IMG/VR virus record: IMGVR_UViG_3300005732_000008
Span: 1-41,808 of that record
Length of the DNA: 41,808 nt
From: a virus
Reading direction: 5' to 3' (one strand)
The notes under the pieces are model-generated. The model did no database searches, was not told the DNA's origin, and saw only the letters and a program-made list of their open reading frames with translations. A program made the translations under genes and the position numbers. Position 1 is the first letter of the stretch. Every line of letters starts with the position of its first letter. Positions 6,801-35,942 of the stretch are shown in pieces.

Positions 6801-7245
6801 CGACGTTGTACGCCGTCGGTCCCACAGACTGGCGCTGGTAGACGACGGCGATCCTGTCGGTGCGGTCCGTGTCGTAGAAGGTGCACGCGTCCGGGTCTGC
6901 CAGGGCGCTGGTTGCCGCCGCTGCTGTGGTTCGGATGACCTGCCAGGCGCTGGTCTGCTGCACGTCACAGCCCCGCCAGTCGGTGTCACCTTCGTACTGG
7001 TAGATGACCTCGGCACCCCCGGGTTGCACCGGCCCGCCCTGGTTCACCTGGACGCGCAGTTCCTTGGATGCCGACTGTGTCCCGCTCGCCTCCAGCGCCA
7101 GCGTGTACGATCCCTGCGGGACAGCCTCGCCATTCGTGGGTCCTTGCTGGGTGAACGTCGCTTTGTCGTCCCAGATGTGGGCGGGGGTGAGCGCGTAGGG
7201 CAGACCAAGGCCGCGCAGGGCAGCGCCAGAGACATCAGTGGACAT
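3847..7245 (-). CDS. Large tail protein with sialidase-type Asp-box; candidate receptor-binding or tip protein
   Basis: 1,132 residues, the longest gene in the window. It is built mostly of beta-prone repeats. Around residue 430 there is a clear Asp-box, S-T-D-S-G-L-N-W, in the context ARSTDSGLNWKYTG, and near residue 210 a shorter relative, HRSLDGSTWTVV. Such boxes mark beta-propeller blades in sialidases and in many phage tail spikes. Segments naming crop- or motion-type catalysis are absent, so it may bind rather than cut. The C-terminal 150 residues (FRVATVVIEEVR end) look like a tail-attachment region. It lies just downstream of the tape measure and a small lipoprotein, and its stop overlaps the next gene as TGATG. 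Confidence 0.6.
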   Translation of the reverse strand: MSTDVSGAALRGLGLPYALTPAHIWDDKATFTQQGPTNGEAVPQGSYTLALEASGTQSASKELRVQVNQGGPVQPGGAEVIYQYEGDTDWRGCDVQQTSAWQVIRTTAAAATSALADPDACTFYDTDRTDRIAVVYQRQSVGPTAYNVECAVYDPADGTWTSSTVYTQSTSPTDGFHPTVTYNRRDGHLYCAHWIYDTSAETAQVRVHRSLDGSTWTVVSSYALEDGLDISGTAGSAADGYEAGRLRMAFSGGQCLLVAHVIANDTDTSAEPRDQLAQWFSVSRASRFTLAADIARIEFTGGDTNVFAFHSVMEIDGVLTVFWPSTIAQLPTANYMYRLALPSASSSILSRVTTAFDASAGVFSFAESGSGTAGRVFDYDTTTNQVVTDGDGSVWVDEDGTIQGAWRLSTSSATNEGGVFLARSTDSGLNWKYTGNGDADGTDAAGALVVYTGDSATYLSDFVGVSHRGRQVLIGLNTTDVTSSVTLSATFLGGPSTVTLPAPISYPRTHQRSSWTESYLPLELPANISSLTTTGAGTDAITSTGLLNRSTSSQTKYTTMTLTSTVAQGVAARYALTVNSGGALTGNQCALNLRSADGGADYDVYIRFSTSSFRMWDDNAASQIGTDKSTVSPDEGIDVLAAIANGELSVWFRALDSKSDREWTAAIQGHSLTAGAGSTDIVRWGAIATGTADFDIHEAHAMSGASANGALGGGFTNPDDLFGRTLSRRGQTIGIDDGVRVVAVDGSAMEGDTFNIDTAYEHPIERILYRESPSPRSMWRSVAVTSGNTPEQLIPFVLNTDATLGSEEQGFGSTLLYATFQGVNWSAGSIDRWDTGTNAWVTVATLNNAISTAFSLTRRGNELIVPSLPTTSSGRYFRENECAGWTVMMGTTFRRLTGNSAGTLASNIDGAKPVFFLADIDGSEPTTTTITLIPDKFCVTFHTDGETGGGWALRIDAQKTTELDLRCGHFSMGRVFAFGTQYGRGRVIAYESGDLTESTISGVQRARRAGPGGRTVRIAWPEPIDTSQLQGATTDPDYITSTNVAGNLPVAAQKDPPLSLRGVLEQVGARDAITYLPCVPTPAGTTHYRFSDAFMLGTIASAVQVESTLGDECDPTTGELFRVATVVIEEVR

Positions 7246-17364: not shown

Positions 17365-18813
17365 CTACTTCAGAAAGAATCGGGAGGTCTTGAACGCGCC
17401 CTCGGGGGCAAGCCAATCCTCGGCAATGTAGCCGAATGCGTCGAATGCGTGCTTTAGCTCGGAGTTCGGCTCTCCACACCAATGCGAGAGCGTCTCACGG
17501 AGGCGGGCGCAGTCCTTGTGGACCTTGAGCCGGCCCTCCAGGATCGCCGTGTTGACCATGCGAGCGCGGGCACGGATGGAGCCCGGCCCCTTGTATGGCG
17601 TCTCGATGTTGAACGGGCACCGGGGCAGGTTGGCGCTGCGGGCGATGGCGCGCTCCATCAGTTCGTTGACGGTGGTGGCCACACCCCGACGCCCGGCGCT
17701 GTTGGAGTCGCCCCGCATGCGGTCGATGTTCTGCCAGGTCACGCCCCAGCCCGCAAGCAGGGTGTCATGCACGGCCTTGACCTCCTCGATCTCGGTGAGC
17801 CTGCCCTGACTCACCCACTCACCGAGCACCCAGACGCGGTTGGCTGTCTCGTCCACAAGGATGAGCACCCAGACAGTCGCACCGGGTCGCTCTCCGTAGT
17901 CCGCACCGAGCGCGCAGACCTGAGCAGACTCTGGCAGCTCCTCATCGTCGCCAAACACGTCGTAGCCGAGCCGGTCGGTGAAGGCGGGAATCCACCGGGC
18001 CTCGGTGAGCCCTTCCCATTCTGCCCGAATGCGCTGCGGGACCTCCCACGGTGCGCATCCGTCGACCATGTTCTGGATGATGTGGTCTGCCAGGTGCGGC
18101 GCGTTCTCTCTGCAGAGGCTGAAGTGCTCGACCCACCATCCCGGCTCGGGATGCACGTCGAGGGACTTGTTGCCCTCCAGGATCGTCCGCAGCCACGCGA
18201 CGGGTCGGCCAATCGGGGTGAACGTACACCACATCGGGCCACCGGTTCGATCCACGCGACTCCGACAGCCTGACCAATGCGACCGCTTCGGGGGCTCATC
18301 GACCCACAGCCAGCCGATCTTGTCGCCCTCCATCGCGAGGACATCCTGACTCCCGCCCTTCGCGACGAGCAGCGCCCCACCCAACTCATCCTTGACCTTC
18401 AGCATCTTGCGGGAGCGGTAGGTGTAGCCGATGCCCTCGACGTACTTACAGGAGGGATCGAGCACGCCGGGCGGCTCCAGGATGCGCATTGCCTTGGACA
18501 CCGCTTTCCAGCCTTGCTGGAGGTCGGAGAGCAGCACCCAACCCTCGGCACCCCTACCGGGCGTCCCTCGGTAGGGGTGCCGGTCGAGCAGGTGCCACCA
18601 TGCCTCAGCGCCTCCAGCGAAGCTCTTGCCGATGCCGTTGGCCGCGACCAGGGCGCGCTTGCGGTTGTCTGCCGAGTGAAACGCCATCTGTGGTGGCGAG
18701 TGCCCCCCGAAGCCGGGGAGTTCCATCTCGTAGACCCGGAGCGGGTCCGCGCTGGCTGCACTGGCTGCGCTTCGGATGGATACCACGCTCACGTCAGGGC
18801 GCCCACTGATCAT
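17365..18813 (-). CDS. terL: Terminase large subunit
   Basis: DNA-packaging motor. 482 residues from the ATG at 18813 (MISGRPDVS), which overlaps the preceding stop as ATGA; a longer frame exists but overlaps that gene. Residues 57-64, AANGIGKS, form a deviant Walker A. Residues 168-173, WLWVDE, form Walker B with the catalytic Glu. The C-terminal nuclease has ALGADYGERPGAT near residue 335, a second acid in RMRGDSNS, and a third in HAFDAFGYIAEDW near the end, the three-acid pattern of the RNase H-like terminase nuclease. It lies between an S24/S26-like peptidase and the portal. Confidence 0.9.
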   Translation of the reverse strand: MISGRPDVSVVSIRSAASAASADPLRVYEMELPGFGGHSPPQMAFHSADNRKRALVAANGIGKSFAGGAEAWWHLLDRHPYRGTPGRGAEGWVLLSDLQQGWKAVSKAMRILEPPGVLDPSCKYVEGIGYTYRSRKMLKVKDELGGALLVAKGGSQDVLAMEGDKIGWLWVDEPPKRSHWSGCRSRVDRTGGPMWCTFTPIGRPVAWLRTILEGNKSLDVHPEPGWWVEHFSLCRENAPHLADHIIQNMVDGCAPWEVPQRIRAEWEGLTEARWIPAFTDRLGYDVFGDDEELPESAQVCALGADYGERPGATVWVLILVDETANRVWVLGEWVSQGRLTEIEEVKAVHDTLLAGWGVTWQNIDRMRGDSNSAGRRGVATTVNELMERAIARSANLPRCPFNIETPYKGPGSIRARARMVNTAILEGRLKVHKDCARLRETLSHWCGEPNSELKHAFDAFGYIAEDWLAPEGAFKTSRFFLK

Positions 18814-20485: not shown

Positions 20486-20977
20486 TCAGCAGTCCCACCG
20501 GTCGAATGAGACGTGCCATCCGTCAGGCTGCTCGGAGATGACTGCGACGTGAAGCCCGGGGATCTCGTCAGAGGCGGCAGCCTGTGCTGCTTCTGCGATG
20601 GCTACCATGGGCGCGTTGCCGTACACATCCAGCATGTCAGCGGTCCACCGAAAGTGGAACCCACAAGGGTGCAGGGTAGTGATGGTGCCCGAACTCGGGT
20701 CATCAAGGTGTCGCCATGGCCGCCCAAGGGACTGAAGGGGGTGCCGCTCAGATCGAGCAGGTTGGAGGTCGGCAGGGACGTAGCGATCAAGGAAGTCCCG
20801 CGCTGTGATGAAGCCGGCGCAGCACTCCAGGCGATGGTCCGGGTTGTTGACCATCCACCCGATCAAGGTCGTGCGGTCAGCCGGGGAAATGTCCCAGTCC
20901 GCCCAACGAAAAACGCCGTTGGATGCGGTGCCGATCTCCCGGTCATCTTCGTGGGGGTGGTAAACGGTGAGGCTCAT
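20486..20977 (-). CDS. Unknown 163-residue protein
   Basis: Opens MSLTVYHPHEDDREIGTASN. It includes FRWADWDISPADRTTLIGWM, then ECCAGFITARDFLDRYV and a C-terminal AVISEQPDGWHVSFDRWDC. It has no signal, no membrane span and no repeated motif. The Cys residues are scattered rather than paired. Its ATG forms an ATGA overlap with the small terminase candidate, so the two are co-translated. Confidence 0.5.
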   Translation of the reverse strand: MSLTVYHPHEDDREIGTASNGVFRWADWDISPADRTTLIGWMVNNPDHRLECCAGFITARDFLDRYVPADLQPARSERHPLQSLGRPWRHLDDPSSGTITTLHPCGFHFRWTADMLDVYGNAPMVAIAEAAQAAASDEIPGLHVAVISEQPDGWHVSFDRWDC

Positions 20978-21690
20978 CCGGTGCTCCGGTGGCTGTGGTC
21001 CAGTGCAGCCTGCACAATGGCGCGGGTCTGCGGGTTCTCTGCGAGCACCATGGCCAGCAGGCGCGGACCGATCCTGACGAGGTCTGTGGCAAGCTCTGCG
21101 CGCCCCTCTGCCCCTTCGTAGTAGTCGGCGTCCCGCTCGGTGCTCTCAGGCTCCTCAAGCCTGCCCTCAGCCTCCAGCAGTGGCCCGAGCTTCTCCAGGT
21201 TGAGGTGCAGGGCGCGGGTCATCGACAGGAAGTCCTTGGGCTCCAGGCGGTTGAACTGCGGGGGCTGGCCGTCCTTGTCGAGATTGAGGACCATGCCTGG
21301 CTCACAGTTCGGGCACCACAGGCCGGTCTCCTGCACCCGGACCAGCCGGCGGATGACCTTGCGCACCGAACTCCGATCCACCGGGCCGAGGGCGGCAACA
21401 CGGGTCTCGGCCTTCGCGCGGGCGATGTTGGCTCTGTACTCTGCGAGCTTCCTCGCCTTCCGCGCCTCATCCTTCGTCTTCCCCCCTTTCTTGACCCGAT
21501 CTGCTGGCTTCCGGGTGGGGAGGGCGACCACATTGGCGGGCGGGGTCACGGTGCCCTTGTCAAGTGCCCGTTTCCAACTGCGAACCGTCCCGGCCTTGAC
21601 CCCGTAGCGGGCGCTCACAGCGGCGATGGTGTCCCCGCTGTTGAGGTCGAGCAGAGCCTGCGCTTTGGCGGGGTGGGGTGGTCGTGGCAT
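20974..21690 (-). CDS. Putative terminase small subunit (helix-turn-helix DNA-binding protein)
   Basis: 238 residues from the ATG at 21690 (MPRPPHPAKAQALLDLN). A longer version starting at 21741 would translate the repeat cluster upstream and is unlikely. Residues about 6-42 form a helix-turn-helix (AKAQALLDLNSGDTIAAVS then YGVKAGTVRSWKRAL), as in phage small terminases and transposase-like regulators. A basic helix (KDEARKARKLAEYRANIARA) follows, then a CPNC pair near residue 130, and an acidic helical C-terminal half. It is 2 kb upstream of terL in the same operon. A small terminase recognises packaging start sites, and a repeat cluster lies just before it. A general regulator is the alternative. 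Confidence 0.6.
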   Translation of the reverse strand: MPRPPHPAKAQALLDLNSGDTIAAVSARYGVKAGTVRSWKRALDKGTVTPPANVVALPTRKPADRVKKGGKTKDEARKARKLAEYRANIARAKAETRVAALGPVDRSSVRKVIRRLVRVQETGLWCPNCEPGMVLNLDKDGQPPQFNRLEPKDFLSMTRALHLNLEKLGPLLEAEGRLEEPESTERDADYYEGAEGRAELATDLVRIGPRLLAMVLAENPQTRAIVQAALDHSHRSTG

Positions 21691-21701
21691 GGGTACCAGG
21701 A

Positions 21702-21757
21702 GTTTATCGCGTGGCGTCATAAACGGAAACAATCGCGTCATAAACCACGCGATAAAC
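21702..21757. repeat. Repeat cluster: 13-bp inverted repeat enclosing 11-bp direct repeats
   Basis: GTTTATCGCGTGG at 21702-21714 is the exact reverse complement of CCACGCGATAAAC at 21745-21757. Between and across them GCGTCATAAAC occurs twice, at 21714-21724 and 21735-21745, with 21-bp spacing, that is two helical turns. The element lies in the 82-base gap before the small terminase candidate. It could be an operator, a promoter region or a packaging recognition site. Confidence 0.6.
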
Positions 21758-22825: not shown

Positions 22826-23160
22826 CGGTCGGCCTCCCGACGTTCCCGCCATTGGTAGTAAGCAGCCTCTACCGGGGTGTTCGCCCTGTAGTACCCCCAC
22901 ACCCCATCCAGGAACGACCTGACCTTGTGCGACCAACCGCAGAACCGGTGCCACTCGGCAGGGATGCGGTCCCGCTCGACCACTGACGGCATAGAGTACG
23001 GGTGCGGGAGGCTCGGTGCGCATAAGCCAAGACCCTGAGACAACTCAACAGCCTGCACCGGCTCCACCGTTGCCAGCCTCAGCAGCCTGAACGGAATCGC
23101 CTCAAGCCCCGTCTCTCGCCCGTAGCGGCGCATCTGCTTTCGTCGCTGATGTGCGTTCAT
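22822..23160 (-). CDS. Unknown basic 112-residue protein
   Basis: Starts MNAHQRRKQMRRYGRETGLE. It includes PFRLLRLATVEPVQAVEL, then PAEWHRFCGWSHKVRSFLDG and VWGYYRANTPVEAAYYQWRE near the end. It is rich in Arg, Trp and Tyr, with no membrane span. AGGA lies seven bases before the ATG. It is the first gene after an AT-richer stretch that may hold a promoter. Confidence 0.5.
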   Translation of the reverse strand: MNAHQRRKQMRRYGRETGLEAIPFRLLRLATVEPVQAVELSQGLGLCAPSLPHPYSMPSVVERDRIPAEWHRFCGWSHKVRSFLDGVWGYYRANTPVEAAYYQWRERREADR

Positions 23161-23351
23161 CGGTCAGTCCTGGTTTTATAAGTGCCCTGAAACACCGACA
23201 CCATCGGCATTACTGTGGGTTCCAGCCCCCGAATCCACCCGCTTTTATAAGCGGAAATATGAGTGTATCGAAGTCGCGGTAGGACGCGCGGCGAATGCCC
23301 ACTATCGCTTACGCGACCCCTTGTTCCGGGGCTCCTTGAAGTCGTTGTCAT
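23157..23351 (-). CDS. Doubtful 64-residue frame over an AT-richer stretch
   Basis: The frame fits perfectly between its neighbours, with ATGA overlaps at both ends, but no clear ribosome site precedes it. Its codon use (ACA, ACT, TTT, TAT, AGC, GTA) is far less GC-rich at third positions than surrounding genes. The translated product is Arg/Ser/Thr-rich without a recognisable fold. It contains two copies of CTTATAAAA (minus strand; at 23174-23182 and 23243-23251), the second within a CCGCTT-TTAT-AAGCGG hairpin. The stretch may be a regulatory region rather than a gene. Confidence 0.3.
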   Translation of the reverse strand: MTTTSRSPGTRGRVSDSGHSPRVLPRLRYTHISAYKSGWIRGLEPTVMPMVSVFQGTYKTRTDR

Positions 23352-23944
23352 CGGTCAGCCCCCACTCGGTAGACCGGAATACCCAGCCGCTTCCGGCGCC
23401 GATTGATGGTGTGCATGTTGCGGCCGCATTGGCGGGCAAGCGCCGAATCTGACATGGTCCCAAGAAGGGGGTCGATTCTCGCCCAATCCACCGGGTCGGG
23501 GTTGGTGTTGAACGGAGGGATACCGAGCCGCTCCCGTTTCTGATGAACGCGCTGCCTGCTGATGCCCCAGGTACCCGCAAGCTCGGGGTCAGGCGCTGTC
23601 CCGAGGGCGGCAACCATCTCAGGGGTCCAGCGTGCGGTGTGGACACCCTGGTGGGCTGGGATGTTGCGGGAGATACGCCATCTGCGCACGGCGCTGGGCG
23701 ACACTCCCCACCGGGTGGCGAGTTGCCGGTCAGGGAGTTCTCCAAGGCTGCTGACCTGCTCTACAGTGAGGCGAATCGCCGGACGCCCCTTGTGGCCCGA
23801 CGTCCTCTCGATTCCCTTCCGGATGCGGCGGCATCGAACGGTGTGGTACGAGCACCCAACCGCGCGCGCTATCTCCTTGTCCGGCATGACTCCAAGCAGG
23901 CAGTCAAACTCATCCCAGTCGTAGGTTGGCCTCCTCCCCATCAC
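23348..23944 (-). CDS. Protein made of four tandem helix-turn-helix modules
   Basis: 198 residues with GGAGG eight bases before the ATG. Four modules of about 45 residues follow one another: residues about 9-48 (LLGVMPDKEIARAVGCS), 57-98 (LGELPDRQLATRWGVS), 103-146 (LGTAPDPELAGTWGIS) and 150-194 (LLGTMSDSALARQCG). Each is built as LLG.MPD..lA...GvS...V..rR..LGIP, a helix-turn-helix with a basic second half. The recognition helices differ between copies. The same module occurs twice in the protein at 35523-35942. It may read an extended composite DNA site as a regulator, but it resembles no named phage repressor. Confidence 0.65.
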   Translation of the reverse strand: MMGRRPTYDWDEFDCLLGVMPDKEIARAVGCSYHTVRCRRIRKGIERTSGHKGRPAIRLTVEQVSSLGELPDRQLATRWGVSPSAVRRWRISRNIPAHQGVHTARWTPEMVAALGTAPDPELAGTWGISRQRVHQKRERLGIPPFNTNPDPVDWARIDPLLGTMSDSALARQCGRNMHTINRRRKRLGIPVYRVGADR

Positions 23945-27128: not shown

Positions 27129-27397
27129 GGTATCTCCAGGTCAGGGGTGTAGGTGGGTGCGTTGAGGATCTCGGCCACCCTCGACGCATGCGCCCGGTAG
27201 TTCCGCACGTCCGCATCAGGGTCGGTGAGAACATCGGCGTCGGGCTGGGTGATGGCCTCGACCTCGCAGCGCGGACAGAGCTGATAGGCGGCGCCTGGCG
27301 GGGGCTGGTTGCCTGGGCGGTACGTGACCTCGACAGGGCATCGCCGGCACTGGTAGGTGCGGATCTGCGGGAGGATGGCGAGGCGGGGCCGGGTCAT
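27125..27397 (-). CDS. Zinc-ribbon protein
   Basis: 90 residues. YQCRRCPVEVTYRPGNQPPP then YQLCPRCEVEA gives two C-x2-C pairs 25 residues apart, a standard zinc ribbon. A negatively charged helical tail (DADVRNYRAHASRVAEILN) follows. Such small ribbons usually bind nucleic acid or a transcription protein. ATGA overlap with the RecU-type gene upstream. Confidence 0.6.
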   Translation of the reverse strand: MTRPRLAILPQIRTYQCRRCPVEVTYRPGNQPPPGAAYQLCPRCEVEAITQPDADVLTDPDADVRNYRAHASRVAEILNAPTYTPDLEIP

Positions 27398-27912
27398 CGA
27401 CTCGCCAGATGGTCAAGGGCAGGCTGGAGGTAGTCGAGCACCACGCCCTTTCGCTCCCAGCATACCGAGAACGCCCGCATTTGCTCAGCCGTCAGGGACG
27501 CCTCACCGCGCCGAGCGTCTCCAGCCCGCCAGACGTTCCAGAACGGACGCACGAGCGACCAGAGGACCGCATAGGAGCCGTCAGGGGTGTTGATGAGCAG
27601 GAGGGGGAGCCCGCCGTGCTTCTCGACCGCGTTCAGCGTGCTGGCCTGATGATCCTCCAACTGTCGCAGAGGCCATCGCGACAGCCGGATGCTCTTGGCA
27701 TCGGCAACGATGGTTCGGCCACCGGAGAGGATCGTGTAGTCCGGTGCCCCGGTTGCCCGGAACTGTGCGCCCACGATCTGCCCGCCCCGTCCACGCCGAA
27801 CGATGACCTCGGGATGGTTGCGGGTGACCAGTGCTCGGCCCGACGACTGGATCAGGGCGTGGTAGCGCTCAAGCTGGCGCTCCCAGATTTTGCCCCGGTT
27901 TGCGGCGGTCAC
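27394..27912 (-). CDS. RecU-type Holliday-junction nuclease
   Basis: 172 residues from the GTG at 27912, forming GTGA with the upstream stop. The opening NRGKIWERQLERYHALIQ matches the RecU/PD-(D/E)xK helix with its catalytic Glu. RATGAPDYTIL gives the Asp, VADAKSIRL the E/DxK pair, and RWPLRQLEDHQASTL the conserved Q.H following it, all in RecU order. A closing hydrophobic segment, GLPLLLINTPDGSYAVLW, also fits. It would cut four-way junctions formed during recombination or replication of phage DNA before packaging. Other small zinc and unknown genes surround it. Confidence 0.75.
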   Translation of the reverse strand: MTAANRGKIWERQLERYHALIQSSGRALVTRNHPEVIVRRGRGGQIVGAQFRATGAPDYTILSGGRTIVADAKSIRLSRWPLRQLEDHQASTLNAVEKHGGLPLLLINTPDGSYAVLWSLVRPFWNVWRAGDARRGEASLTAEQMRAFSVCWERKGVVLDYLQPALDHLASR

Positions 27913-29577: not shown

Positions 29578-30272
29578 CGTCCACCTCCAGGGAACTGGTA
29601 CACCCTGCCGCCTTTGGCGTGCGGTGTGGGTGCCTCTGGTTCAATGGTGAGCACCTTCTGCTGCTGGAGCACCGAGAGCTTCTCGGGCGTCATCCTTTCC
29701 AGGAAGTACCGGATTATCTTCGCTTGCCGTTCCATCTCATCGAACCCCGCCGGGCTCTGAAGCCCCCGCCACTGCAACTCGAATCCATGGACCTCGATAT
29801 CGCTGACCCAGCCATGCCCGTGGCGCTCGCTTGGAACCTGAAACTGTCGATAGCTCCAGTCATCCCCGGTGTAAGAGATCACCCGCCCGGCGTCGGTGTA
29901 CTCCGTTTCAACCAGCTCCCTGGAGGTCATAAACAACCGGCGATCAATGCCCATCTCCGCGCCAATGCGCTCCCGATGCTCCCTCATGCCGTTCCATGAC
30001 GCCCCCTTGATGTTGAGCTTCTGCCAGTCGCAGCGAACCACGAACTCAGGGTGCAGGTCTTTGCGTGTGCATACGGCCAGCCTGACCCCCAGCAGGGACT
30101 GTCCAGAGCCCCATACTCGGTACCGGTACTCAAAGCGCCATAGGCCACGCTCTGACAACTGCCACCCGCCCATCTCTACCCACTCCCCGGAGAAGGTGAC
30201 CGGGACAGTCCCGCCGTTGCAGCGGTCCCATTCCTGCCCGTTGCGCCTCCAGTCAGATCTTCGCCCCCTCAT
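29574..30272 (-). CDS. Unknown 232-residue protein next to the helicase
   Basis: Basic start (MRGRRSDWRRNGQEWDRC), then beta-rich sequence with ERGLWRFEYRYRVWGSGQSL, a charged centre (GASWNGMREHRERIGAEMG) and a C-terminal helix (DEMERQAKIIRYFLERMTP). It follows the DnaB-type helicase with an ATGA overlap, so it is probably made together with it and may act in replication. No family or catalytic motif seen. Confidence 0.5.
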   Translation of the reverse strand: MRGRRSDWRRNGQEWDRCNGGTVPVTFSGEWVEMGGWQLSERGLWRFEYRYRVWGSGQSLLGVRLAVCTRKDLHPEFVVRCDWQKLNIKGASWNGMREHRERIGAEMGIDRRLFMTSRELVETEYTDAGRVISYTGDDWSYRQFQVPSERHGHGWVSDIEVHGFELQWRGLQSPAGFDEMERQAKIIRYFLERMTPEKLSVLQQQKVLTIEPEAPTPHAKGGRVYQFPGGGR

Positions 30273-31633
30273 CGTCCACCCCGCACAGCTGCGGGCGCAA
30301 CCCTGTCGGTGACAAGCCCTGTGGTTGCGTGCCAGTGGAGGTCCAGGATCATGCCGGCAGGTCCTGCACGGTTCTTGCCGATTACCCAGTTCATCAGGGT
30401 GGGGTCCTGCGTGTCGTCGTAGTACGCCGGTCGGTGGGCGAGGATGATCAGGTCTGCGGTGTTCTCGATCATCGTGCTGTCAGAGATGTTGGAGATCCGA
30501 GGGATGCCGTCCTGCCGGTTCTCTGCGTCCCGGTTGACCTGTGCGAGCACCAGAATCCAGATCCCCAGCTCCTTGGCCAGCTCCTTGAATCCGACGATCC
30601 ATCGGGTGACCGCATCGGTGCGGCGTTCTCCGCGATCCGGAGTCATCAGCCCGATGTAGTCAACAACCACACCGCGCAATGGGTAGTCGGTGTCTGCGTG
30701 TGCGGCGTGCTGGCACCGGATGTGGCTCTTGATCTCGGTCATGGTGTAGATGCCCCGACCGCGCACATTGATGGGCAGGGCGCTGTACTCCGCTGCCCCA
30801 GATCGAATCCGCTGCATGTCGGATGGGGTGGCGCGCACCTTGCCGATCACCTTGCCGAGGCCGACGCCGGAGACCTGTGCGATGTACCGCTGGTGCTGCT
30901 CTACTTCGTCCATCTCCAGGGTGATGTACTCCACTCGATGACCCGCCATTGCGGAGTTCTTCGAGAGGGTCACGCCGCCCATGGACTTGCCCATGCCGGT
31001 GCGGGCTGCGAGCACGATGAGCTTTGTGGGTGCGAGGATGCCGGGGGCCACGTCGTCGAGGGTGTCGATGCCGGTGGAGGCCATGTGAGCGGCTTGCGGG
31101 TTGTCGAGCAGGTCAAGGACCGCCCGTGCACCATCGGATGCGTCAGTGCCTGCGTTGGGGCGGGAGTGACGCAGCCTCCCGGTCGCCGTCTCGATCTTGT
31201 CGACCATCGAAGCGACATGCTCACCGGGACGCCCCCGGATGGGCTGGGACGCCAGGCCGATGAGCCACGGAGCCATGCGCGCAGCCCTGCGGCAGACCGC
31301 CAGTGCCACCACAGCCTCGATGGAGTCATCCACCATCAGCGGGGAGTGATCCGCAATGGCGGAGACGTGCTGGATGCCGCCATAGGCGTCCGCATCACCG
31401 GTCAGGTAGATGGCCTCAACAACAGCTGCCATCTCGATGCTCTGGCCGGCGTCGGCGCGCTCGCACAGCAGTTCGTAGAGCTTGCGGTTCGCATCGCGGT
31501 AGAAGTCGCGGGGCTCCAGGCCGCTGGCTCGGATGTCCACCAGCTCAGCGCCGTACGAGCAGAAGATGGCTGCGAGGATGGCGCGCTCGGATTCGAGGCT
31601 GTGACGCTCAGCGGGATTGCTCATGTTGCTCAC
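30269..31633 (-). CDS. Replicative DNA helicase, DnaB family
   Basis: 454 residues from a GTG forming GTGA with the initiator-like gene; an ATG three codons on (31624) is also possible. The N-terminal domain (ERAILAAIFCSYGAELVDI) matches DnaB-N. The RecA-like domain has Walker A ARTGMGKS near residue 210, the YITLEM segment, Walker B VVVDYIGLM near residue 325, and the DnaB motifs AQVNRDAENR and KNRAGPAG. It forms a hexamer that unwinds DNA at the fork. The initiator candidate immediately upstream probably loads it onto an origin that may lie in that gene. Confidence 0.9.
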   Translation of the reverse strand: MSNMSNPAERHSLESERAILAAIFCSYGAELVDIRASGLEPRDFYRDANRKLYELLCERADAGQSIEMAAVVEAIYLTGDADAYGGIQHVSAIADHSPLMVDDSIEAVVALAVCRRAARMAPWLIGLASQPIRGRPGEHVASMVDKIETATGRLRHSRPNAGTDASDGARAVLDLLDNPQAAHMASTGIDTLDDVAPGILAPTKLIVLAARTGMGKSMGGVTLSKNSAMAGHRVEYITLEMDEVEQHQRYIAQVSGVGLGKVIGKVRATPSDMQRIRSGAAEYSALPINVRGRGIYTMTEIKSHIRCQHAAHADTDYPLRGVVVDYIGLMTPDRGERRTDAVTRWIVGFKELAKELGIWILVLAQVNRDAENRQDGIPRISNISDSTMIENTADLIILAHRPAYYDDTQDPTLMNWVIGKNRAGPAGMILDLHWHATTGLVTDRVAPAAVRGGR

Positions 31634-35143: not shown

Positions 35144-35377
35144 TCAGCCCATCCCGTTGTAGAAGTTGACCGCGCCGGACAGATCGCCGCTGTAGACCTC
35201 CTCCCAGCGAACAGGCTCAACGAGATAGCGCCGGGTGACCTTGAACTCCGCCCCCTCCTTGAAGAGCCGCTTGACCTGGGTGCCGTCGGCAGTCTTCCCG
35301 GCAGCTCCAAGGATTCGGGACTTGTCGAAGTAGTCGCGCATCTCCTGCGCGTCGAGGGGCTCTGGTCTGGTTCTCAT
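35144..35377 (-). CDS. Unknown 77-residue protein
   Basis: MRTRPEPLDAQEMRDYFDKS, then AAGKTADGTQVKRLFKEGAE and RRYLVEPVRWEEVYSGDLSG. It is charged and mixed alpha/beta. It stands three bases before the annealing-protein candidate, so it may be a partner of it. No motif recognised. ATGA overlap with the small paralogous protein upstream. Confidence 0.5.
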   Translation of the reverse strand: MRTRPEPLDAQEMRDYFDKSRILGAAGKTADGTQVKRLFKEGAEFKVTRRYLVEPVRWEEVYSGDLSGAVNFYNGMG

Positions 35378-35526
35378 GTCGTCTCCTGTTCGTTGATTCG
35401 TGCCGTGAGCGCGTCGATGCGCTCGGTGAGGTCAGCCAGCAAGGCGGGCGGGAAGCCGCGCCGCTGGGGGTAGGTGCGCCGCTTGATGAGGCGGGCGAGG
35501 TGTACGCGGTCGTCTTCGATGGTCAT
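35374..35526 (-). CDS. 50-residue paralogue of the N-terminal part of the two-module helix-turn-helix protein
   Basis: From the ATG at 35526, ATGA with the upstream stop. It begins MTIEDDRVHLARLIKRRTYP and ends LTERIDALTARINEQETT. The adjacent gene at 35523-35942 begins MTIEDDRALLSHLRRRYFYL and continues LAEMAESIQLLERA, so both share the first 45 residues in layout. This copy lacks the helix-turn-helix modules. It could compete for dimerisation with the longer protein. Confidence 0.6.
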   Translation of the reverse strand: MTIEDDRVHLARLIKRRTYPQRRGFPPALLADLTERIDALTARINEQETT

Positions 35527-35942
35527 GAATGCCTCCTGTATGGTGGGATCTTGAGGTGGTGTCGGCGGCGACACACAGCACCCCGCGAGCACCCCACAGC
35601 CTCGGACAGTGCCCTGTCGGTCATGGTCCCGAGCAGGTGATCCCACGGACGAGGCTGCGCCATTGGGCGCCGGTACGGCTCAACACCGAGGCTGGAGCGC
35701 CGCCGGCGCACAGTGCCCTCGGATACGTCGAAGATCCCCGCAACCTTCGAGTCCGGCATCGTGCCGAGCAGGCGATCCCACGGCAGCACAGTAGCCTCGG
35801 GAACAGGCTCAACTGCACGCTCAAGGAGTTGGATGGACTCAGCCATCTCCGCAAGGGTGGGCGCGGCCTCGCCGCGCCCACGTAGGTAGAAATACCGCCT
35901 CCGCAGGTGCGACAAAAGGGCGCGGTCATCTTCGATGGTCAT
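35523..35942 (-). CDS. Protein with two tandem helix-turn-helix modules
   Basis: 139 residues. After an N-terminal helical region (MTIEDDRALLSHLRRRYFYL), residues about 54-93 (WDRLLGTMPDSKVAGIFDVS) and 97-137 (WDHLLGTMTDRALSEAVGCS) each form a helix-turn-helix with a basic second half and end in P-Y-R-R. The module is the one repeated four times in the protein at 23348-23944. It is the second gene of the leftward operon, right after the Cro/CI-like gene, so a regulatory role is likely. Confidence 0.65.
   Translation of the reverse strand: MTIEDDRALLSHLRRRYFYLRGRGEAAPTLAEMAESIQLLERAVEPVPEATVLPWDRLLGTMPDSKVAGIFDVSEGTVRRRRSSLGVEPYRRPMAQPRPWDHLLGTMTDRALSEAVGCSRGAVCRRRHHLKIPPYRRHS

Follow-up and report, generated by a model that had tools for sequence, protein, structure and literature searches.

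A protein built of four tandem helix-turn-helix (HTH) units was identified and characterized by computation in a 41,808-nucleotide stretch of viral DNA (IMG/VR record IMGVR_UViG_3300005732_000008; hereafter the window). The protein belongs to a sizeable family of repeat arrays that is apparently undescribed in the databases and papers searched and, as a kind, the protein is a new variant among HTH DNA-binding proteins. We infer that the array is a nuclease-free, sequence-specific DNA-binding protein, most likely a late-gene regulator, and we give this view of its function and target slightly less than an even chance. The usual HTH protein has a single reading unit and forms dimers. By stringing together up to ten units, with the core kept fixed and the recognition helix varied, the present family would give bacteria and phages a natural modular means of reading DNA.

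Array protein of the window

The gene is a 198-codon ORF on the minus strand, with a GTG start at 23944 and an ATG one codon on; its limits are exactly those of the original prediction. The protein is strongly basic (30 Arg and 5 Lys residues, pI 11.1, net charge +16) and consists of four HTH repeats of ~47 aa joined by linkers of ~15 residues. Self-comparison gave repeat offsets of 47, 50, 97 and 144 residues, and the best 35-residue self-matches scored 77 (offset 144) and 74 (offset 47) versus a maximum of 40 for shuffled sequences (n=300). Pairwise identity of the four repeats is low (~26-41%), suggesting that the duplication is old. In Pfam searches, HTH_23 matched three stretches (E = 6e-13) and an AsnC-type HTH was also matched (1e-8). 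The array and its modules are as follows.

23348..23944, minus strand: tandem-HTH array coding sequence (ORF, HTH matches, self-comparison, AlphaFold)
23807..23899, minus strand: module 1, aa 16-46, LLGVMPDKEIARAVGCSYHTVRCRRIRKGIE, recognition residues YHT.RC (repeat HMM; helices 22-29, 33-43)
23654..23746, minus strand: module 2, aa 67-97, LGELPDRQLATRWGVSPSAVRRWRISRNIPA, recognition residues PSA.RR (repeat HMM; helices 61-66, 72-79, 83-92)
23510..23611, minus strand: module 3, aa 112-145, AALGTAPDPELAGTWGISRQRVHQKRERLGIPPF, recognition residues RQR.HQ (repeat HMM; helices 108-113, 119-126, 130-140)
23369..23467, minus strand: module 4, aa 160-192, LLGTMSDSALARQCGRNMHTINRRRKRLGIPVY, recognition residues MHT.NR (repeat HMM; helices 154-160, 166-173, 177-187)

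An AlphaFold2 model, for which the alignment consisted of 56 four-module segments from related arrays, contained four separate three-helix units (mean pLDDT 89.2) and not a single globular fold, as had been proposed from the DNA letters. A pTM of 0.45 implies that each unit is predicted with confidence and their mutual arrangement is not. The four stretches originally named as differing recognition helices were each modelled as a helix, and their sequences are distinct: SYHTVRCRRI (residues 33-43), SPSAVRRWRI (83-92), SRQRVHQKRE (130-140) and NMHTINRRRK (177-187). The accompanying suggestion that each module touches a DNA 'triplet' found no supporting evidence.

No sequence relatives of the array protein or of the repeat profile were found in PDB, and a Foldseek search of PDB structures gave no match below E 0.001. 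The fold search did return 50 predicted viral proteins, many of them multi-HTH or with nuclease or D5 names. Close relatives of the array protein and of the window's terminase large subunit (TerL) were searched for in IMG/VR and none was found; nor were phage nucleotide relatives of the window found in the collections searched. A search for a sigma-70 promoter near the array gene was also negative. Sigma factor, Cro/CI, MerR and excisionase were rejected as identities for the protein, all matches being sub-threshold. Curated sigma-70, Cro and CI families gave sub-threshold HTH matches only, in agreement with the initial opinion that the protein is not of the Cro/CI, Arc or sigma type.

Directly downstream of the array gene (23157-23358, minus strand), CTGACCGATGA and CTTATAAAA each occur twice and nowhere else in the window, and a CCGCTTATAAAAGCGG palindrome encloses one of the CTTATAAAA copies. 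The window also encodes a second array protein.

35523..35942, minus strand: second array protein, two modules (35673-35771 and 35538-35639) preceded by an N-terminal domain of ~50 aa

The N-terminal ~50 residues of this protein are paralogous to the whole product of the adjacent ORF (35374-35526, minus strand), and both products start with MTIEDDR. The modules were thus apparently joined onto a duplicated small gene.

The LG..PD repeat family

We defined the LG..PD family by at least two copies of a ~32-residue core (LLGTMPDxxLAxxxGVSxxxVxxxRxxLGIPP), with module starts spaced mostly 41-57 aa apart. Members were collected by scanning DNA with a degenerate pattern that encodes LGTx[PS]D..[ILV]A...G, followed by HMM iteration on ORFs. 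The pattern matched 34 viral and 44 bacterial stretches, and HMM iteration revealed array proteins in phage contigs and bacterial chromosomes with 2 to 10 modules, the very range of repeat numbers that had been anticipated. The window protein is a clear member, with four modules of 47-54 bits each at a spacing of 45-51 and with the consensus residues kept in all four.

The arrays at phage loci L008, L035, L010 and L032 have seven or eight modules; arrays of nine or ten occur in Paraburkholderia, Planctomycetes, Shewanella and Chromatiales. Bacterial chromosomes with the tandem repeat included those of Planctomycetes, Paraburkholderia, Pseudomonas and Shewanella. Within a Planctomycetes family that was sampled, 6 of 60 genomes contained an array, suggesting that the repeat is widespread but patchy. 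Among the arrays scanned, Pfam and NCBIfam offered no dedicated model for the repeat, general HTH models alone being matched, and a literature search on the repeat motif or tandem HTH repeats retrieved nothing relevant.

Several arrays had additional parts. Rhodopirellula-type arrays (L063:456-1604, L068:31-1131, L080:3939-5027) have six modules behind a long Lys-rich, histone-H1-like N-terminal tail; their genes are divergent to an adjoining RecQ-like ORF (identified by eye), and one copy per genome was present in the two genomes searched. Adjacent array genes at L006:1520-2844 and L018:1699-3023 (plus strand) encode N-terminal zinc-knuckle-like CxxC motifs. At L020:5814-6860 (plus strand), the modules are split 3+2 by a domain of ~120 residues, which by eye resembles a PD-(D/E)XK/Vsr-type nuclease (VADWVLGDGTIVEFAG...); Pfam and PDB searches with this domain were without a match.

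Fixed core and variable recognition positions

Analysis of 367 modules revealed nearly invariant residues at core positions 2, 3, 7, 25 and 30 (L 97%, G 100%, D 98%, R 98% and I 92%, respectively), where conservation of LGT..D..A...G is partly built in because the search pattern itself demands those positions, while V21, R25, I30 and the recognition positions, all in the second half of the repeat, are outside the pattern and were unselected. Recognition-helix positions 18, 19, 20, 22 and 23 were hypervariable, being the most variable of the repeat together with positions 8 and 26 (entropy 3.5-3.9 bits).

Orthologous arrays showed a strong module-by-module diagonal, module i corresponding to module i. 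Identity at recognition positions on versus off the diagonal was 0.93 and 0.21 in Rhodopirellula, 0.76 and 0.10 in Paraburkholderia, and 0.40 and 0.07 between two Planctomycetes, implying that the bacterial modules each keep their own reading surface. Among phages, L032 and L035 have TerL proteins that are 89% identical and arrays that are only 52% identical; the corresponding values for L032 and L010 are 94% and 34%. For L032/L035, dN was 0.96 at recognition positions versus 0.14 in the core, with synonymous sites saturated. A closer phage pair (L008/L035) had a dN/dS of 0.35 overall, 0.47 for recognition and 0.11 for core positions. Bacterial pairs had dN/dS values of 0.09-0.22, and in Rhodopirellula the recognition positions (0.04) equalled the core (0.037). 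The array genes in the compared pairs are under purifying selection. In the few pairs compared, the recognition helices appear to be kept in bacterial arrays and to change faster in phage arrays. The L032 array is also offset by one module relative to that of L008, as would follow from the gain or loss of one module.

A further reading is that the five variable residues of each module read a short DNA word, the module being a unit that phages, homing-endonuclease-like genes and bacteria use in 2-10 copies. Arrays would then be assembled via addition, loss and re-tuning of modules, and would be fixed in bacteria and fast-changing in phages. We regard such a module code as rather doubtful; if true, it would be a prokaryotic counterpart to zinc-finger and TALE arrays and partly decipherable.

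Gene neighbourhood and a candidate target

The array gene lies between replication and terminase genes, all encoded on the minus strand. Relevant features are given below.

30269..31633, minus strand: DnaB-like replicative helicase
27394..27912, minus strand: RecU-like Holliday junction resolvase, end of the replication/recombination block
21702..21757, no strand assigned: candidate binding site, four GTTTATNNCG copies (one plus, three minus), directly upstream of putative terS
20974..21690, minus strand: putative small terminase (TerS) with an N-terminal HTH (tentative; HTH_23/HTH_28 and position)
17368..18813, minus strand: terminase large subunit (phrog_2, E 2.7e-16; PF03237 above cut-off)

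The minus-strand order is DnaB-like helicase, RecU, small ORFs, array, small ORFs, putative TerS and TerL, with the array 1.7 kb from putative terS and 4.5 kb from terL. The window TerL is only 22-26% identical to those of known phages. In L010, the order DnaB (assigned by eye), array, TerS, TerL is as in the window, and L035 has a primase/helicase-like ORF (also assigned by eye), array, TerS and TerL. The pure arrays of L010, L032 and L035 are placed like that of the window, between replication and terminase genes and on the same strand.

Every copy of GTTTATNNCG in the window, four in total, falls within 56 bp, whereas 0.13 copies were expected window-wide, and a four-copy cluster of this kind was seen in none of 60 simulated sequences. 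Together, the two outermost copies make up a perfect inverted repeat of 13 bp. Different palindromes were present 5' of TerS in the other three pure-array phages. The palindrome loci are L035:4066-4086, L008:9749-9769, L010:8876-8932 and L032 ~7090-7115. L032, L035 and L010, whose TerL proteins are 88-94% identical, have unlike palindromes in the same place, adjoining arrays with diverged recognition helices, and co-divergence of regulator and site is possible in these phages. The GTTTATNNCG cluster and the differing palindromes fit an operator that diverges with its regulator; they fit a packaging site bound by TerS equally well.

Arrays fused to GIY-YIG domains

The best phage matches of the window protein (tblastn, repeat HMM) were GIY-YIG proteins of Vibrio phages, in which the C-terminal part consists of an array of this repeat. 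GIY-YIG scored above cut-off in array proteins of Vibrio phage L004, L028 and L034 and below it in L012, and a LEM-3-like GIY-YIG was above cut-off in the L011 array protein; the domain is N-terminal in L011, L028, L034 and L012. By contrast, GIY-YIG (PF01541) is absent from the window's array protein and from the whole window, in which no HNH domain was detected either.

We also set array positions against matches to the terminase large subunit, with related contigs collapsed (n=15). In this small sample of contigs that are often fragments, 7 of 15 arrays were at most 2 kb from terL (2.2 expected, P 0.0014) and 6 of 15 at most 600 bp (0.7 expected, P 1.4e-5). These six, all ~530 bp or less from terL, are exactly the six independent GIY-YIG-type lineages, G007/L013 being counted as such from a GIY-YIG-like C-terminal part only. 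Pure arrays near the terminase comprised essentially one lineage (L008, L035, L032 and L010), the window and one 2.8-kb case. The link between GIY-YIG arrays and adjacent terL bears on a possible route from selfish nuclease genes to regulators.

In two mutually unrelated phages, the Walker A (P-loop) coding region of terL is interrupted. In L011 (5700-6130, minus strand), the interruption is just 3' of the GIY-YIG array gene and consists of an AT-rich insert of 66 nt that carries an in-frame stop (YGGAAG|...|GGKTD). In L012 (7690-7770, minus strand), terL of L012/L027 has an in-frame TAG (YGGAAGG*GGKSH) just downstream of the GIY-YIG array gene. The interruptions may mark the homing site, or else an insert that is bypassed or resembles an intron; Rfam gave no group I intron match at the GIY-YIG loci.

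Function of the array

Each module pairs an almost unvarying core (L-G-x-x-x-D, A, G, V, R and I) with its own recognition helix, so that the array should bind head to tail along one long composite site and not as a dimer on a palindrome. A regulator that reads such a composite site is plausible. It would most likely act on transcription where expression passes from replication genes to those for packaging and structure, and its candidate target is the GTTTATNNCG cluster just 5' of putative terS. Late-gene regulation is the best supported of the functions considered, at about an even chance and no higher, since operator and TerS packaging site suit the repeats equally.

Alternatively, the array, alone or with TerS, could recognise a cos/pac site near terS to start packaging, in keeping with the pure arrays of one phage lineage located directly 5' of TerS-TerL, with the resemblance of the last L035 module to a small-terminase HTH (phrog_1206, 1.5e-5), and with inverted-repeat or palindrome elements 5' of the (putative) TerS in the window, L010 and L035/L008. 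However, a putative TerS with its own HTH is encoded in the window, terminase genes are not among the neighbours of bacterial arrays and many phage arrays are distant from terL; we consider this role improbable. A different origin is suggested by the occurrence of the same repeat as the C-terminal part of GIY-YIG proteins, consistently beside terL: the window's array could be the DNA-reading half of a homing endonuclease minus its nuclease, either a remnant or the partner of a nuclease encoded elsewhere, located near the old target, the terminase genes. But nuclease matches are missing throughout the window, the DNA upstream of the array gene is another intact ORF and not nuclease remains, and no module has lost its consensus residues. 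Purifying selection also acts on other pure arrays, many of which belong to bacterial chromosomes. This origin therefore appears unlikely.

It was also considered that the array is a general DNA-coating or architectural protein of little sequence specificity, as described for T5 D5. The phrog_323 (D5-like) profile matched the array protein with E 1e-7, hhalign of the array profile with D5 gave 88% probability (E 3e-6, 158 columns), and the Lys-rich tails of the Rhodopirellula arrays are nucleoid-protein-like. On the other hand, phrog_323 also matches 13 of 14 control genomes, direct BLAST against D5 yielded nothing (E 0.19), and the repeat HMM had no significant domain in D5, in which the LG..PD...R..xGIP signature is absent. 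That bacterial arrays strictly conserve distinct recognition helices speaks for specificity and against coating, to which we attach little probability.

Relation to known systems

GIY-YIG homing endonucleases of the I-TevI type (NUMOD) share with the array an extended string of small DNA-binding modules, and several phages encode, next to terL, GIY-YIG proteins with this same LG..PD repeat. The array protein is not itself a homing endonuclease, as neither it nor the rest of the window contains a GIY-YIG or HNH domain, but it may function much as the DNA-reading part of such an enzyme does. I-TevI is also capable of transcriptional repression (PMC3943268). NUMOD1 (PF07453) was rejected as an identity for the repeat (11.3 bits, cut-off 22.8).

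By profile, T5 D5 (phrog_323) appears to be the nearest named phage protein, though the match is remote. Like the array, it is a phage DNA-binding protein with several HTH units per chain, and it is annotated as needed for late transcription; unlike the window array gene, its gene neighbours ligase and D6 helicase. Small-terminase profiles (phrog_1206 and phrog_57) gave weak, HTH-level matches to the array protein, and the putative TerS of the window is a separate protein. Weak Foldseek likeness was seen to DUX4, Pax, Tc3 transposase and Reb1, which also have several three-helix units per chain but only two or few of them, and are without sequence relation to the array.

The late regulators RinA, Ltr and Alt are basic proteins; their genes lie between the early/replication genes and terS, and repeats are present 5' of the late operon (PMC13123087). 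RinA is located upstream of terS, and Ltrs are proteins of ~130 aa that are reportedly unlike any known bacterial transcription factor (PMC13123087). The array protein has corresponding traits, namely its high pI and a gene position between DnaB/RecU and the terminase, with terS assigned tentatively.
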